Assembly (NCBI GenBank): GCA_018335015.1
Contig: JAGXKX010000001.1
Span: 1-54,027, forward strand
Reading direction: 5' to 3'
Length of the DNA: 54,027 bases
Source of the DNA: Candidatus Bipolaricaulota bacterium
Lineage (GTDB): Bacteria; Bipolaricaulota; Bipolaricaulia; M55B111
Below the pieces are notes generated by a model. The model was not told where the DNA came from, did not search any database, and saw only the letters and a list, made by a program, of their open reading frames with translations. The stretch's first letter is position 1; every line of letters begins with the position of its first letter. Position numbers and translations under genes: made by a program. Shown here in pieces: positions 1 to 49,755 of this stretch.

Positions 1-673
1 CCCTCACCCTGTCAGGAGGTCCTTCGATCAGTTTCTTCCCCTGATCGAATACGATAACTCTCTCGCAGAGCTTGAAGATGGACTCCATGTCGTGGCTAAT
101 TATTAGAAAGGTCTTACCGGCGTCGTAGAGCTCGTGGACGTGATCGTGCAGGTCACCTCTAAGCTCAGGATGCACACCGGCAAACGGTTCGTCCAGAACA
201 ATTATGTCCGGATCCAGCATCAGGACTCTCCCCAGTTCCAGCAATTTCTGTTGACCGCCCGAAAGATTCACGGATAGTTCTTCCTCAAGATGATCAATCA
301 GAAGAAAATCCATGATCTCGTCGGCTTTTCTTTCCACTTCCTTTCTGCTGGTAGCTTTTGACGCGAGGGCGGGTACGAGCAAGTTTTCCAGGACCGTCAA
401 TTGCTCAAACCCTCTCGTGATTTGGAAAGTACGGCCCAGGCCTCTGGCGGCGATCTCGTGAGAGGGCATGCCGGTGATGTCGATATCTCCTAATTTAATC
501 GTCCCACCGGTTGGCGATAATAGCCCCGTAATTACGTTTACGAAGGTCGTCTTGCCGGCTCCGTTTGGGCCAATCAACCCCGCTAGTTCTCCGCCCTTTA
601 CCGTCACCGTTACCCCGTCCAGGGCTTTAACACCGCCGAAATGTTTCTTCAAACCTTCCACGTAGAGGTTAAT
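1..673 (-). CDS. ABC transporter ATP-binding protein, LivG-like (partial, runs off window)
   Basis: About 224 residues are visible on the complement; the C-terminus lies outside the window. It is the cytoplasmic ATPase of a branched-chain amino acid/amide (HAAT family) importer. Walker A is GPNGAGKTT, the signature region LSGGQQKLLELGR, Walker B is followed by DEPFAGVHPE, and the switch histidine is in ISHDM. GVHPE in place of GLNP is typical of LivG-type proteins. It lies about 70 bp downstream of the binding-protein gene and should be part of the same transporter. No ATG or TTG fits the N-terminus. A GGAGG ends 7 nt before an in-frame ATT (673-671) that gives the expected NLYVEGLKKHFGG start; an in-frame GTG at 661-659 lies 19 nt from the Shine-Dalgarno. 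Family call is secure; the start is uncertain. Confidence 0.9.
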   Translation of the reverse strand, partial: MNLYVEGLKKHFGGVKALDGVTVTVKGGELAGLIGPNGAGKTTFVNVITGLLSPTGGTIKLGDIDITGMPSHEIAARGLGRTFQITRGFEQLTVLENLLVPALASKATSRKEVERKADEIMDFLLIDHLEEELSVNLSGGQQKLLELGRVLMLDPDIIVLDEPFAGVHPELRGDLHDHVHELYDAGKTFLIISHDMESIFKLCERVIVFDQGKKLIEGPPDRVR

Positions 674-698
674 TACGATACCTCCAGCTTAAAAGAAA

Positions 699-728
699 GC
701 AGAGGGAGGCGGTAAAACCTCCCTCTGC
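699..728 (-). terminator. Intercistronic hairpin (attenuator) between binding protein and ATPase genes
   Basis: A perfect 11-bp inverted repeat, GCAGAGGGAGG and CCTCCCTCTGC, surrounds an 8-nt loop. Read on the minus strand it is followed by CTTTCTTTT, so it looks like an intrinsic terminator just after the binding-protein stop codon. Partial termination here would make more binding protein than ATPase, a common arrangement in ABC importer operons. Confidence 0.75.
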
Positions 729-742
729 GATAGGGTGAATAA

Positions 743-2023
743 TTATTCCTCCATGTAAGGGGGAACCTCAAATTCACCTTCGGCCCAGTCCTGCGGCCAG
801 ATAACGGTTCCCTCTCCGCCATGATACTGGATAACCGGGTAGATGTAGAAGTCCTTTGCTACCTTTGGGTCAGGAACTGTTTCCGGGGTGTACTTGTACT
901 CCTTCATCAGGATTCCTTCCGTGAAGGACAGGTCCCCGGTCCTTACGAGGTAATGATTGACCTTCTGAATATTCTCCGAATTTACTTCTCCGTAAAGCTG
1001 GTGGGTTTTTCTCAAAATCTTTATCAAATAGTTAGCGCCGTCGTAAGCCAGGCCTGAGGAGGAAGCACTTGGTTCTACGCCCCACTGCTCTTCAAATCTA
1101 TCCCTGAACTGCTTTGCTTCTTCGCTCGCCCACTGTGGAATCTGGTCCAGTACGTAGTCAGAAGCATCGCCAGCGAGATCGTACCATTCACCCATCCAGC
1201 CCAGACCATCAGCTATTACCAGACTTTTAAGCCCCACCTCTCGAGCCTGTTTCACCAAGGCAGCAAAAGAAGCGGGTACGGTCGACGTACCTGCAATTAC
1301 GGAGACTTTTCTGTCCTGCCATTTCTGGAGTAGGGGGTAGAACTTCGTCTTCTGCATCTCGAAGTAATCCTTGGAGACTACATTCCAGCCAGCCTCCTCG
1401 AATTGTTCGGCGATGGAATTACCAAAGCTCCTTCCCCAGTCAGTGTTTTCACCGTAAATTGCCACGTTTTTCGTCTCGGGGTCCCACTTGCCGGCTTCCA
1501 CGGCCTCGGAAAGAGTTGTAACGTAAGCTATGGAGAGTTTTCTGGGGGTGGGCCAGAACTTACCACTGTCGTAATACTGATACTTCTCCGGCTCTTCGTG
1601 GTACTTGTCCAGGATCACCTGGGTTGCGGCTCCGCCGAAGAAATGAGGTATCTGGTACTGCGCCGCCATGTCCATCAAAGCGACGGACACTGAACTGTGC
1701 CAGTTGAAGGTAGTGACGTCTACTCCCTTTCTCGTTACTGCCTGGGTGTAGTTTCTGGTTGCCTTTTCCGGCTGCGATTCCGAGTCCACCTTCACCAGCT
1801 CAACTTCTACATCGCCTATCTTGTTGTTGATCTCGTTAAATGCCATTTGATAGGAATGCCATATTTCACTACCTACCCTGGCATTTGGACCGGTAAATGG
1901 ACCGATTACACCCACCGTAACATTGTCCTGGGCAACAGCGGTATTACTGAAAAGTCCCCCTAGCACGAGAGTTAAAATCAGCAGAAAAATTAAACCGGGG
2001 ATTTTTGGTCTATTCTTAACCAA
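743..2023 (-). CDS. Periplasmic substrate-binding protein of branched-chain amino acid/amide ABC transporter
   Basis: This is a Peripla_BP_6 (LivJ/LivK/AmiC-like) extracytoplasmic ligand-binding protein. A short basic N-terminus is followed by a hydrophobic signal segment ending near TAVAQ, then the family opening VTVGVIGPFTGPNARVG. The track starts at GTG 2032, but that codon abuts the AGGAG. TTG at 2023 lies 8 nt after GGAGG and is the better start, giving about 426 residues. The binding protein is the first gene visible in the operon and is followed by a hairpin and the ATPase; permeases must lie outside the window. Motifs alone do not decide between leucine-type amino acids, short amides and urea as ligand. 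Confidence 0.88.
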   Translation of the reverse strand: MVKNRPKIPGLIFLLILTLVLGGLFSNTAVAQDNVTVGVIGPFTGPNARVGSEIWHSYQMAFNEINNKIGDVEVELVKVDSESQPEKATRNYTQAVTRKGVDVTTFNWHSSVSVALMDMAAQYQIPHFFGGAATQVILDKYHEEPEKYQYYDSGKFWPTPRKLSIAYVTTLSEAVEAGKWDPETKNVAIYGENTDWGRSFGNSIAEQFEEAGWNVVSKDYFEMQKTKFYPLLQKWQDRKVSVIAGTSTVPASFAALVKQAREVGLKSLVIADGLGWMGEWYDLAGDASDYVLDQIPQWASEEAKQFRDRFEEQWGVEPSASSSGLAYDGANYLIKILRKTHQLYGEVNSENIQKVNHYLVRTGDLSFTEGILMKEYKYTPETVPDPKVAKDFYIYPVIQYHGGEGTVIWPQDWAEGEFEVPPYMEE

Positions 2024-22555: not shown

Positions 22556-22929
22556 AACTCTCGGCTTAGTTAGACCTCAGGGGCTCAACCAGCTTGGTTA
22601 TTCCTGGCAAATTAGACCGGCTTTAGCTTGACCGTGAAAGATGCGGGTAGTTCACGACTAAGGATTTATTTTGAGCCCTCCCTGTTGCCCCTTACCGGAC
22701 AACTGATTTAACTTCAACAAATTGAAAATATGCTAAATCCCGGCAGTCCGGTAAGGGGCAACAGGGAGTTATTTTGACTTAATAGTTAAGCGTAAACTAT
22801 CAAAAGAATTGAGCGCGATAGCTTTACCCATTGCATGAACTTCAGGGCTTTCATTCTTAAATTAGATAACAACTATTCCGCAATGTATGTCGCGCAGGGC
22901 AGTTAAACTATAAGCCAAATCGTCTACTT
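22556..22929. other. Intergenic region between convergent sucC and sucD
   Basis: 374 bp with no gene; dominated by palindrome B at 22678-22768, with element-like flank sequence continuing to about 22813. Confidence 0.7.
22678..22768 (-). repeat. Palindromic element copy B
   Basis: A perfect 23-bp inverted repeat (outer part CTCCCTGTTGCCCCTTACC) surrounds a 45-nt loop. Read on the minus strand, the loop edges CTGCCGGGATTTAG and TTAAATCAGTTG match the cores of elements C, D and E. It separates the convergent sucC and sucD genes, so it may also act as a bidirectional terminator. Outside the palindrome only the side towards 22813 (CAAAAGAATTGAG) still resembles the family terminus. Confidence 0.85.
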
Positions 22930-25270: not shown

Positions 25271-25395
25271 CTCAAATCTTTCACCATCTGATGAAGTTGT
25301 AACTTAATTTACAAAGGTTAAATTAATTTTTTCACTACTGGCTCTCTGCCCTTACCTGGTTGCCGGATTTTTCTCAGTTAATGATAAGTTTTCAG
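25271..25395 (+). repeat. Palindromic element copy F (truncated)
   Basis: The left end CTCAAATCTTTCACC matches the terminal repeat of copy C at 14 of 15 positions. TAACTTAATTTAC and then GGCTCTCTGCCCTTACCTGG and TTGCCGGATTTTT match copy D. The right arm and right end are missing, so no long hairpin can form. It lies between the stop codon of the ABC-2 permease and the start of the MOT1-type gene. Confidence 0.75.
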
Positions 25396-35945: not shown

Positions 35946-37397
35946 ATGAACCGAGCGGGATTAGTTGGCGACAAACTTAAATTACTTAACGAAGACGAAG
36001 TAGAATTGATACACGAATCCGCCTTAAAACTTTTGAAAAACCTGGGTGTAAAGGTCGACTCTGAAGAATTTCTTGAAATCCTTGAGGGAAACGGCGCTCG
36101 GGTCAACTACGAGAACGGACGAGCGAAACTGTCTCCTGAACTGGTCCGCGATTACCTCGAAATTGCTCCTTCCAGGATAACTCTGCACGGAAGAAAAAAA
36201 GAATACGATCTTAGCCTCGAGGACAGAAAAGTCCACTACGGGACGGGGGGAGCAGCAGTAAAGATACTGGACCTGAATTCCGAAGAGGTTAGATCATCAA
36301 CCCTCGAAGATCAGGCAAGACTGGCTCGACTTGTCGAAAATCTAGACAACGTTCACTTTTTCCAGGCTCCAGTGGTTCCCACGGACGTACCCGAGGAAGA
36401 TCTGAGCCTCAACAGTGTCTACGCGAGCCTTACCGGAACCCACAAAAACGTCCAGGAATCCGTGACGAGTCCGGAGAAAGTGGATGAAATCGTCGATATG
36501 GGGGCAATAATAGCCGGATCAAGAGAGGAGTTCCTTGCTCGTCCTTTCGTTTCCTTCGTAACTAGCTGGATGGTAAGCCCGTTAAAATTAGATATCGAAA
36601 CCACGAAAGTTCTCAGGAGAATAACCAACTATAAAATCCCGGTTGCCCTGTCAACGGCACCGGTTACCGGCTCTACAGCGCCCGCGACGTTATCCGGGCT
36701 ACTGGTTCAGGTCCACGCCGAAGAGCTATTTGGAATCACCCTGGCTCAAATGTTTTCCGAGGAAACACCCGTTCTTTACGGGCCAGTACCGGCTGCAGCC
36801 AATATGAAGAACATGGCTTACCTGGCGGGAGCTCCGGAGACGGGGATGATGAACGCAGCAACCGTTCAGCTGGCAAATCACATCGACGTCCCGATCTATT
36901 CCGACGCTGGAGAGACGGACTCAAAATTACCCGATACACAGGCAGGAGCGGAAGCCGCGCTTAACCTCCTTCAGGTCGGCCTTGCGGGTGGTAACTATAT
37001 CCACCACGCAGCTGGAATGATGGAGTCGATGCTCTGTGTTGCCGACGAGAAGTTCGTCATCGACAACGATATTATCGGCATGGCCCTTAGAGTTCTCCAG
37101 GGGATAGACGTAGACCAGGATAAGCTTGGCCTGGACGTAATAGAAGAAGTAGGTCCGGGCAATAATTTTCTTACTCAGCCCCACACCGTAAATTACTCTC
37201 GCTCGGACGAATTTTACAAACCCAGCGTCGTTGATCGCGAAGACAGAACTACCTGGGAAAATAACGGGTCAATGGAAACCCGACCCCGCGCCAGGAAACG
37301 TGCAAGAGAGTTGCTGGAAGACGTAGAGGATAACCTTTTGCCGGAAGACGTGGACGAAAAAATCAGGGACAGGTTTAACATTCACTTACCCAAATAA
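35946..37397 (+). CDS. MttB-family corrinoid methyltransferase, non-pyrrolysine (copy 1)
   Basis: 483 residues of the trimethylamine-methyltransferase superfamily. The N-terminal helix region (LIHESALKLLKNLGVKVDSE) and central barrel motifs (GTGGAAVKILDL, LTGTHKNVQES, STAPVTGSTAPATLSG, GPVPAAANMKN, IPIYSDAGETDSK-like) are typical. The frame has no internal TAG, so it is the non-Pyl branch, which includes glycine betaine, proline betaine, carnitine and gamma-butyrobetaine demethylases. It would move a methyl group to a corrinoid protein; none is encoded in the window. GGAGGAAATT before ATG, 26 bp after the GS gene. Confidence 0.9.
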   Translation: MNRAGLVGDKLKLLNEDEVELIHESALKLLKNLGVKVDSEEFLEILEGNGARVNYENGRAKLSPELVRDYLEIAPSRITLHGRKKEYDLSLEDRKVHYGTGGAAVKILDLNSEEVRSSTLEDQARLARLVENLDNVHFFQAPVVPTDVPEEDLSLNSVYASLTGTHKNVQESVTSPEKVDEIVDMGAIIAGSREEFLARPFVSFVTSWMVSPLKLDIETTKVLRRITNYKIPVALSTAPVTGSTAPATLSGLLVQVHAEELFGITLAQMFSEETPVLYGPVPAAANMKNMAYLAGAPETGMMNAATVQLANHIDVPIYSDAGETDSKLPDTQAGAEAALNLLQVGLAGGNYIHHAAGMMESMLCVADEKFVIDNDIIGMALRVLQGIDVDQDKLGLDVIEEVGPGNNFLTQPHTVNYSRSDEFYKPSVVDREDRTTWENNGSMETRPRARKRARELLEDVEDNLLPEDVDEKIRDRFNIHLPK

Positions 37398-37449: not shown

Positions 37450-38880
37450 GTGAGAAAAGGGATCAGGGGCGGACAACTCAACTTGGTTTCCCGCGAGAAG
37501 GTAAAAACTATCCACCAGGCTGCGTTAAGAATTCTGGACGAAAAAGGAATTAAGGTAGAAGATCCGGAATCCAGGCAAATTCTTGATGAAAACGGCTGTC
37601 GAGTGGATCCGGAAAGTCACGTGGTCGAGTTCCCGCCCGAGATTGTGAAGGATTCGCTGGAGAAAGCACCGTCGTCGTTCACGATGGGTGCAAGAGACGA
37701 AGACAACGAATTTGACCTTGGTTACGAAAAATCGTACTTTACGGCCGGCACGGGGACTACTTCAGTGCTCGACCTCGACCGAAGGGAACGGCGAAAAGCT
37801 ACCAGAGAAGATTTGTCCGATGCCGTAAAGCTCGGGGATCAGCTTTCGAATATTGACGTGGTCTGGTCCATATTTACCCTTACTGACGACCCTATGCTTG
37901 GCTTTTATCAGCTATACGCGGTTCTGACCAACAGCAGCAAGCACGGGGCTATCGTAAACTGGTACGGCGGGGAGTTGACCGACAAACTAATTGACATGAT
38001 TGCCGTCGTAGCGGGGGGCAGAAGCAAATTATCTACTAATCGACTCGTTACCATGTACGCCGAGCCCGTATCGCCGTTGACCTTCAGGAAAGAGAACCTG
38101 GAGGTCCTCCTTCGGTGGACGGACGTGGGTCTGCCTTTACTCTGGTACCCAGCTCAAAAGGCGGGGGCTACCGCACCGATGACTCTGTCCGGTTCTCTCG
38201 CTCAGGCCTTCGCTGAGTCACTCGGAGGAAACGTCATCGCTCAACTTAACAACCCTGGTACTCCGGTAATTCTTGGGGCCTCACCGCTCGTGATGGACAT
38301 GCGAACTGCCCTGAATACTTACTTTTCTCCCGAAATGTTGATCATTCAATCTGCGACGGGACAATGGGGAAATATGATAGAAATGCCGATATACGGAACG
38401 GGCGGCTGCACGAACTCCTACGATCTCGACTACCAGGCAGGTGTCGAGTCCTCTCTCTCGCTCTACGGGGCCATTCTGGGCGGCCAGAATTTGATCCACG
38501 ACCTGTCCTTCGCCGGAGCAGGGGATCTGGGGAGCCTGGAGCTCCTTACCCTGACCGACGAGATAGCAGGCATGGCAAAACGAACCGTAAGAGACCTATC
38601 AACCGACGAGGAGGCAATCGCCTTCGACGTTATAGACCAGGTCAATCACGGAGGGGATTACTTGAGGGAGAACCATACTTTCCAACATTTCAAGGAGGAG
38701 TTAATGGCTCCCGAACTGATCCGGAGAATCGGCGAGGACAAGTGGGAAGAAAACTTTTCCGTAAATAAAGCCAGGGAACTGACGAGCCAGCTAGTCGAGG
38801 AATCCGAAGTAAAGCCTTTACCGGAAGACGAGGACAACCAGCTTAAAGAAATCATCGAAAAAGCAAAATCAATGATTTAG
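37450..38880 (+). CDS. MttB-family corrinoid methyltransferase, non-pyrrolysine (copy 2)
   Basis: 476 residues, clearly paralogous to the preceding protein but well diverged. Motifs include KTIHQAALRILDEKGIKVED, TAGTGTTSVLDLDRRERRKAT, PAQKAGATAPMTLSGSLAQ and YGTGGCTNSYDLDYQAG. No in-frame TAG except its terminal stop, which is followed within 30 bp by a strong terminator, so readthrough as pyrrolysine is unlikely. GTG start with AGAGGTGAT upstream. Either it acts on a different quaternary amine from copy 1 or the two act in sequence or as a hetero-oligomer. Confidence 0.9.
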   Translation: MRKGIRGGQLNLVSREKVKTIHQAALRILDEKGIKVEDPESRQILDENGCRVDPESHVVEFPPEIVKDSLEKAPSSFTMGARDEDNEFDLGYEKSYFTAGTGTTSVLDLDRRERRKATREDLSDAVKLGDQLSNIDVVWSIFTLTDDPMLGFYQLYAVLTNSSKHGAIVNWYGGELTDKLIDMIAVVAGGRSKLSTNRLVTMYAEPVSPLTFRKENLEVLLRWTDVGLPLLWYPAQKAGATAPMTLSGSLAQAFAESLGGNVIAQLNNPGTPVILGASPLVMDMRTALNTYFSPEMLIIQSATGQWGNMIEMPIYGTGGCTNSYDLDYQAGVESSLSLYGAILGGQNLIHDLSFAGAGDLGSLELLTLTDEIAGMAKRTVRDLSTDEEAIAFDVIDQVNHGGDYLRENHTFQHFKEELMAPELIRRIGEDKWEENFSVNKARELTSQLVEESEVKPLPEDEDNQLKEIIEKAKSMI

Positions 38881-41524: not shown

Positions 41525-41728
41525 CTCAGATCTTTCACCAACGGCGGAATTAGCTATCTGGTTCGGATAACTGCTCTCTACCCCTTAGCTGGCAACTGAT
41601 TTAACCTTCAAATCCTACCAGTAGACTAAATCCCGGCAGCCAGGTAAAGGGTAGAGAGTCTGTAGTGAAAAAAAGAAATCAATACTCACAATTAAGTTTC
41701 GCTTTCATACGCCGGTGAAAGATCTGAG
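41525..41728 (-). repeat. Palindromic element copy C (complete, with terminal inverted repeats)
   Basis: Terminal repeats CTCAGATCTTTCACC and GGTGAAAGATCTGAG are perfect over 15 bp and bound 204 bp. Inside, arms CTCTCTACCCCTTAGCTGGC (41574-41593) and GCCAGGTAAAGGGTAGAGAG (41639-41658) pair with two mismatches, and the loop contains AACTGATTTAACCTTCAA and CTAAATCCCGGCA. Orientation is opposite to copies D, E and F. It fills the gap between the convergent coiled-coil and NUDIX genes. A 4-bp TATG occurs near both ends and could be a target duplication, but this is weak. Confidence 0.9.
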
Positions 41729-45511: not shown

Positions 45512-45714
45512 CTCAAACTTTTCACCATCGTATAAAAGCGAAACTTAATTTATTAAGGTTGGATTCATTCTTTACCAGTGGCTCTCTGCCGCTTACCTGG
45601 CTGCCGAAAATTTGCCTTCTACTAAGCTTTAAAGGTTAGATCAGTTGCCAGGTAAGTGGCGGAGAGCAGTTATTCGGCCCGGACAGCCAAATCCGACCCT
45701 GTGTGGGAACTGAG
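45512..45714 (+). repeat. Palindromic element copy D (complete)
   Basis: 203 bp, the same length as copy C. Left end CTCAAACTTTTCACC, right end GTGGGAACTGAG. Arms CTCTCTGCCGCTTACCTGGC (45582-45601) and GCCAGGTAAGTGGCGGAGAG (45647-45666) pair throughout if two G-T pairs are allowed. The loop carries TGCCGAAAATTTG, CTACTAAG and AAAGGTTAGATCAGTT, matching copies C and E; the right flank CAGTTATTCGG matches C. It fills the gap between the convergent nrdJ and HAD phosphatase genes. Confidence 0.9.
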
Positions 45715-49357: not shown

Positions 49358-49755
49358 ATTTAGGTGTGTTCATAAAATCCAATTTTTTATATCCAGTTCT
49401 TTCACCATTATAGGGAAGGTGGTCGTAGTTTGTGACCAACCTGTTCACTTAAAATACCAAGTCCTCGGCCGCTTACCAAGCTGTCGGGTTTTTGTCTGCT
49501 ACTAAGTTAAAAAGGTTAAATCAGTTGCCGGGTAAGCGGCCGAAGGAAAACAAGTCTTGATAATTAAGTGCAACACCGATCAAAAAACTGATTAATATCA
49601 AATACCACCATATCCAAGAGACCGTGCCAATCGCAGCACTTGCCACGTATAATCTCGAAAGAGCCCGTTGGTAGTGGCAAATTTGTCCGAATCCCTGCGA
49701 TTAATTATAGTTATAGCGACAAAATCACTAACATTTAGACCAAAAGGGGGGAATC
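49358..49755. other. Intergenic region between the AOR and tldD genes
   Basis: 398 bp with no gene. It holds palindromic element E (49392-49591) and then a nested inverted repeat: outer AATCGCAG (49629-49636) with CTGCGATT (49695-49702), inner TTGCCAC with GTGGCAA (ending at 49680). The latter lies 55-130 bp upstream of tldD and could be a leader structure or operator. Confidence 0.6.
49392..49591 (+). repeat. Palindromic element copy E
   Basis: The hairpin arms TCGGCCGCTTACC (49465-49477) and GGTAAGCGGCCGA (49531-49543) are perfect over 13 bp. The core between them, CTGTCGGGTTTTTG, CTACTAAGTTAAAAAGGTTAAATCAGTTGCC, closely matches copies C and D. The left end CAGTTCTTTCACCATTA resembles the family terminus; the right end is diverged and the boundary is approximate. 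Confidence 0.8.

Follow-up and report, generated by a model that had tools for sequence, protein, structure and literature searches.

In non-autonomous miniature transposons (MITEs), what is conserved is usually the ends, to which the transposase binds. MITEs described in bacteria, such as the Correia elements, Chunjie and QMITE, are shorter than 500 bp, have inverted ends, make short target duplications, and occur as many intergenic, hairpin-folding copies with no gene (PMC10969869). The roughly 204-bp repeat described here resembles them in each of these respects, but its interior hairpin is conserved like the ends, is common to another vehicle, and inverts in place. In the literature that we searched, no MITE was described with such a conserved, vehicle-sharing, inverting interior hairpin.

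Three other systems bear comparison. The insertion sequence ISAba11 is a member of the IS701 family. Its characteristic target duplication is 5 bp (PMC7885321). IS701-like insertion sequences, whose transposases carry a DDE_5 domain, make 5-bp duplications like those of our element, and a probable one in the sister genus has the same 15-bp ends; our element, in contrast, has no transposase gene, and past the ends we saw nothing in common. REPINs, or REP dimers, and their RAYT transposases (PMC3116915; PMC3733652) recall a second vehicle of the hairpin, in which what look like REP-type ends (GYAG plus a hairpin) surround a structured spacer. The 204-bp element differs from them in its DDE-type duplications and its lack of REP ends, and the resident RAYT has a REP other than the core hairpin. 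Repeated inversion of hairpin loops is known from chloroplast DNA (Kelchner and Wendel, 1996, cited in PMC6005162), where hairpin-associated minute inversions likewise involve a loop between inverted stem arms that flips repeatedly in place. Compared with these, ours is a bacterial repeat family with many copies in one genome, a loop of roughly 50 nt and a stem of 20 bp.

Copies of the repeat in the window

The window, by which we mean the whole 54,027-nt stretch of DNA that was analysed, belongs to a draft genome of 1.96 Mb, 86.7% complete and in 152 contigs, whose host falls in one genus of Candidatus Bipolaricaulota. It contains the features below, where the strand of a copy is the orientation of its core, plus reading CTGCCGG first.

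About 22610-22813 (approximate limits), minus strand: copy B, a decayed MITE whose left end is not recognisable, with an intact core hairpin at 22678-22768
25271-25395, plus strand: copy F, a left end and arm (CTCAAATCTTTCACC...) that breaks off within the core; 13.5 bits in the covariance-model search
41525-41728, minus strand: copy C, an intact MITE of 204 bp, with the near-duplication TATGT/TATGG (4/5)
41525-41539, plus strand: left terminal inverted repeat of copy C, CTCAGATCTTTCACC, a perfect 15 bp
41571-41661, minus strand: conserved core hairpin of copy C; covariance model 97.8 bits, E 6e-25
41714-41728, minus strand: right terminal inverted repeat of copy C, GGTGAAAGATCTGAG (the same letters as the left repeat on the minus strand)
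45512-45714, plus strand: copy D, a MITE of 203 bp, core at 45579-45669
49392-49592, plus strand: copy E, a MITE of 201 bp, core at 49459-49549, with the near-duplication TTATA/TAATA (4/5)

The original prediction, made from the letters of the window, was of a family of about 204 bp with at least four copies and a truncated one. The family is real, and its coordinates stand with small corrections. Copy C is 204 bp long and has the perfect 15-bp terminal repeats ascribed to it, which are inverted; copy D, thought to be of equal length, is 1 bp shorter; and copy E starts at 49392 as given but ends at 49592, not 49591. The core of copy B was correctly placed and is intact inside a decayed element, and copy F is indeed truncated, its left end stopping inside the core. 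Covariance-model matches also agree with the proposed orientations, B and C being minus and D and E plus. In the window, these four copies have E-values of 1e-21 to 1e-25, well past anything expected by chance; because the model was trained on C, D and E, or on copies like them, it is the genome-wide count that serves as independent evidence.

Copy D occupies a spacer with a B12-dependent ribonucleotide reductase gene on one side and a HAD phosphatase gene on the other. Elsewhere in the window, at 36912-37011, we noted a borderline match to the Rfam model PYLIS_3 (38.2 against a cut-off of 38) inside an MTTB-family gene. This gene is one of two adjacent family members (35946-37397 and 37450-38880), and as both frames are open with no internal TAG, they are probably non-pyrrolysine relatives.

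Ends, duplications and insertion sites

We consider it very probable that the 201-204 bp copies are a non-autonomous miniature transposon and that, in addition, their core inverts in place. The element has 15-bp inverted ends, CTCAGTTCTTTCACC. We used the 50 copies with both ends recognisable to analyze target duplications, length and inversion. These intact copies measure 192-207 bp, with lengths peaking at 201-202, contain no gene, and lack the length needed to encode a transposase. An exact 5-bp target duplication flanks 24 of the 50, where shuffled sides would give 0.72, and none of the other duplication lengths tested on the same copies showed a comparable excess. The duplicated 5-mers are 82% A+T, compared with 64% in the flanks, and by a crude gene call none of 49 copies lies inside an open frame.

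Target duplications and empty sites were among the checks first proposed for the family, and both were found. In two related species (G002 and G003), the spacer orthologous to that of copy D is a shorter one with no element in it, the exact junction not being alignable. Inverted ends, 5-bp duplications, the absence of coding capacity, and a sister-genus insertion sequence with the same ends uphold the MITE among the readings originally offered.

One complete MITE with the duplication TACTA (L199, G000:C69:18461-18742) is nested within another copy, at the tip of the core, and one copy in G000 directly adjoins the RNase P RNA gene (L002:1709-2047). A 101-bp copy (L259:257-357; G003:C52:64956-65056) retains ends and arms and lacks the core hairpin, which was probably deleted. 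Two longer candidates were set aside: a 2148-bp candidate autonomous element (G000:C55) is really two separate MITE copies, and an 896-bp element of G003, with perfect ends and the duplication ATTTA, is without a transposase.

Copy number and spread among genomes

A covariance-model search of the whole genome and of relatives had been suggested, and the family proves to be much larger than four copies. When DNA, covariance-model and pattern searches were merged, the window's own genome held at least 101 distinct core places, this and our other core copy numbers being lower bounds. With at most 2 mismatches allowed, the end sequence has 141 matches in the genome, and a reversed control pattern has 0.

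Among the 100 closest genomes, the covariance model matched only in the five genomes of the host genus, with no match in any other genus under strict filters. Many copies occur in three of the five (G000, G002 and G003). G001 has 10 core matches, but it has identical contigs in common with G003, and since the two are 100% identical where compared, we did not count G001 as independent. In stretches of these two Tobar drafts, which pass as different species, the identity is 100% for 3 kb or more (L154, L163, L237), which suggests shared or misbinned contigs. G004 has three weak core matches, with E of 0.001-0.005; these suggest decayed copies, on which we do not rely. An independent scan of named genomes placed the pattern in drafts of Candidatus Bipolaricaulota that are labelled Tobar or GSL, the latter taken to mean Great Salt Lake; two further matches in other organisms were taken as chance. 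A scan of viral contigs with TTAAATCAGTTGCC gave chance matches, the query sequence being too short.

A conserved core hairpin in two vehicles

The core is a hairpin of about 90 nt with a 20-bp stem and a roughly 50-nt loop. Mean pairwise identity is 86% in the ends, falls to 60% in the arms, and rises again to 80-82% in the stem; for the core, it is 84%. Two-sided changes are found in 15 of the 20 stem pairs, a level that 0 of 500 shuffles reached, and when the structure is taken as a whole, 94.5% of cells are paired, against 82.9% in shuffled and 31-51% in slid controls. This covariation could in part reflect correction of the palindrome instead of selection. The inner letters are asymmetric, with CCGG on one side and TTG on the other; their conservation extends over the species and over the two vehicles, and they persist in both orientations of the core.

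A second vehicle, about 225 bp long, carries the same core between other arms and REP-type ends (G000:C5, G002:C266), and we therefore treat the core as a separate module. The ends of this vehicle, AAGCAG...CTGCTT with hairpins, have, as judged by eye, the layout of the REPs around the RAYT gene of the same genome. It stands at orthologous places in two species, in the spacer between the PheS and GlmS-like genes and in the PGK/FabF spacer. Short flanks by the stem, GGTTCGRATAAC and GTCTG, are common to both vehicles, so the module may extend slightly beyond the hairpin. REP-like units also lie inside some elements with MITE ends (L245 in G004, L242 in G003).

RAYT-like genes are present in G000 and G003. 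The one on G000:C118 (L274, gene at 171-917, minus strand) encodes a RAYT-type Y1 transposase with its own REP hairpins (GGCCGGGCACGGGGACCCGGCC, GYAG tag) flanking it. We rejected this RAYT as the core's mobiliser, as its flanking REPs are others and its 2.1-kb locus contains no core.

In-place inversion of the core

Oriented by their arms, 11 of the 50 MITE copies carry the core reversed. A tree of the arms needs 10 orientation changes, about as many as random labels give (10.2), and well-supported branches force at least four of them. At the orthologous PheS locus of two species, the arms are collinear at 88-90% identity, and the core is 60.6% identical when collinear but 98.4% when flipped; at PGK, the core is 63% identical collinear and 75% flipped, between arms of 68-76%. 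Although these loci come from draft assemblies, in which repeats are hard to assemble, both are embedded in unique housekeeping genes, and on these assemblies the core turns around in place, recurrently. The most likely cause appears to be template switching or recombination between the stem arms.

A candidate mobilising enzyme

In the five genomes of the host genus, all incomplete, we found no DDE_5 or DDE_Tnp_1 gene; DDE_Tnp_1 (PF01609) was also not found in the sister-genus genome searched. The sister-genus genome G005 offers a candidate. Contig C126 has the start of a DDE_5 transposase gene with the end CTCAATTCTTTCACC at its 5' side, and on C65 an end of the same kind comes after a C-terminal transposase piece. 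As the flanks of both pieces give ATGTT, they look like a single insertion split in two, with 5 bp duplicated. The transposase matches Pfam DDE_5 at 49.8 (cut-off 27), and its best NCBIfam matches are IS701 models, at 73 against a cut-off of 170 for a protein that is broken between contigs.

From the sister-genus insertion sequence, we infer that the copies were moved by a transposase of the IS701-like (DDE_5) kind, the tie between copies and insertion sequence consisting of the 15-bp ends and the duplication length only. Other DDE_5 genes of the class were considered as mobilisers and set aside, their ends being different. In G003, G004 and G005, the same ends are also found on elements with other interiors, so the ends are spread more widely than the core.

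Alternative explanations for the core

The core could be a structured RNA (a regulator, a processing site or a small RNA) captured by mobile elements and kept for its RNA function, as the original prediction had allowed. Beyond the covarying stem and the conserved asymmetric letters, the core of copy C folds stably as RNA (z-score -4.8), and many copies are placed immediately downstream of a gene; of 37, 18 are between convergent genes and 5 between divergent genes. Rfam, however, gives no meaningful match for the core, neither strand is preferred where the neighbouring genes are in tandem (5 same, 9 opposite), the core flips freely, and the alternative inner hairpins are poorly conserved, the three-way-junction fold having 71-77% of cells paired; we regard an RNA function as unlikely. 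It is also conceivable, if somewhat doubtful, that the core has no function, with covariation and inversion both coming merely from replication template switching that perfects the palindrome. Template switching at hairpins is expected to yield both perfect stems and loop inversion. Loop inversion at hairpins has a precedent in minute inversions (PMC6005162). Yet the asymmetric inner letters, conserved across species and vehicles, are not what simple palindrome perfection would preserve, and the identity of the orthologous core is 98%, against 88-90% for its arms.

Alternatively, the core may itself be a tiny mobile element, a hyper-parasite that inserts into other non-autonomous elements. Its presence in two unrelated vehicles, its varying orientation, and ends that resemble imperfect inverted repeats (CTTACCTGGC...) would fit, but no duplication is seen around it, no linked enzyme was found, the only clear core-less MITE is the single 101-bp copy (L259), and the outer stem and short flanks common to the vehicles leave the module without a sharp boundary. 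On balance, this seems quite improbable. Least credible of all is a REPIN/REP family moved by a resident RAYT (Y1) transposase, despite the RAYT-like genes in G000 and G003 and the REP-type ends of the second vehicle. The REPs that flank the G000 RAYT are different, its locus lacks the core, and the 5-bp duplications of the MITE copies are DDE-type and unexpected for REPINs. They already contradict this reading for the 204-bp element, leaving the REPIN-like comparison first made for the family to the second vehicle.

We therefore return to the MITE with an inverting core. An IS701-like transposase of the DDE type would recognize the 15-bp inverted ends and insert the element into A+T-rich spacers, with 5 bp duplicated. 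The core hairpin would travel as a separate module, also in the REP-ended repeat, and would flip via template switching or recombination between its own stem arms, as a hairpin-associated minute inversion. Because the asymmetric letters are conserved in both orientations and neither orientation is preferred relative to genes, our tentative working guess, which may well prove wrong, is that the core is kept as folded DNA, for example for protein binding or to promote mobility, rather than as a strand-specific RNA. A bolder proposal, in which we place little confidence, would make the core a genetic parasite of the third level or a domesticated DNA module, indifferent to orientation, carried by at least two unrelated non-autonomous vehicles (MITE and REP dimer), and selected while flipping.

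The element itself is an ordinary MITE; what is unusual is a conserved hairpin common to unrelated vehicles and its recurrent inversion. Here, a hairpin in mid-element is as conserved as the ends, occurs in two unrelated types of repeat, and differs by inversion between orthologous loci of two species. This raises the question of what keeps the core unchanged in either orientation, and the more than 100 natural copies make it possible to count hairpin-driven inversions within a bacterial genome.
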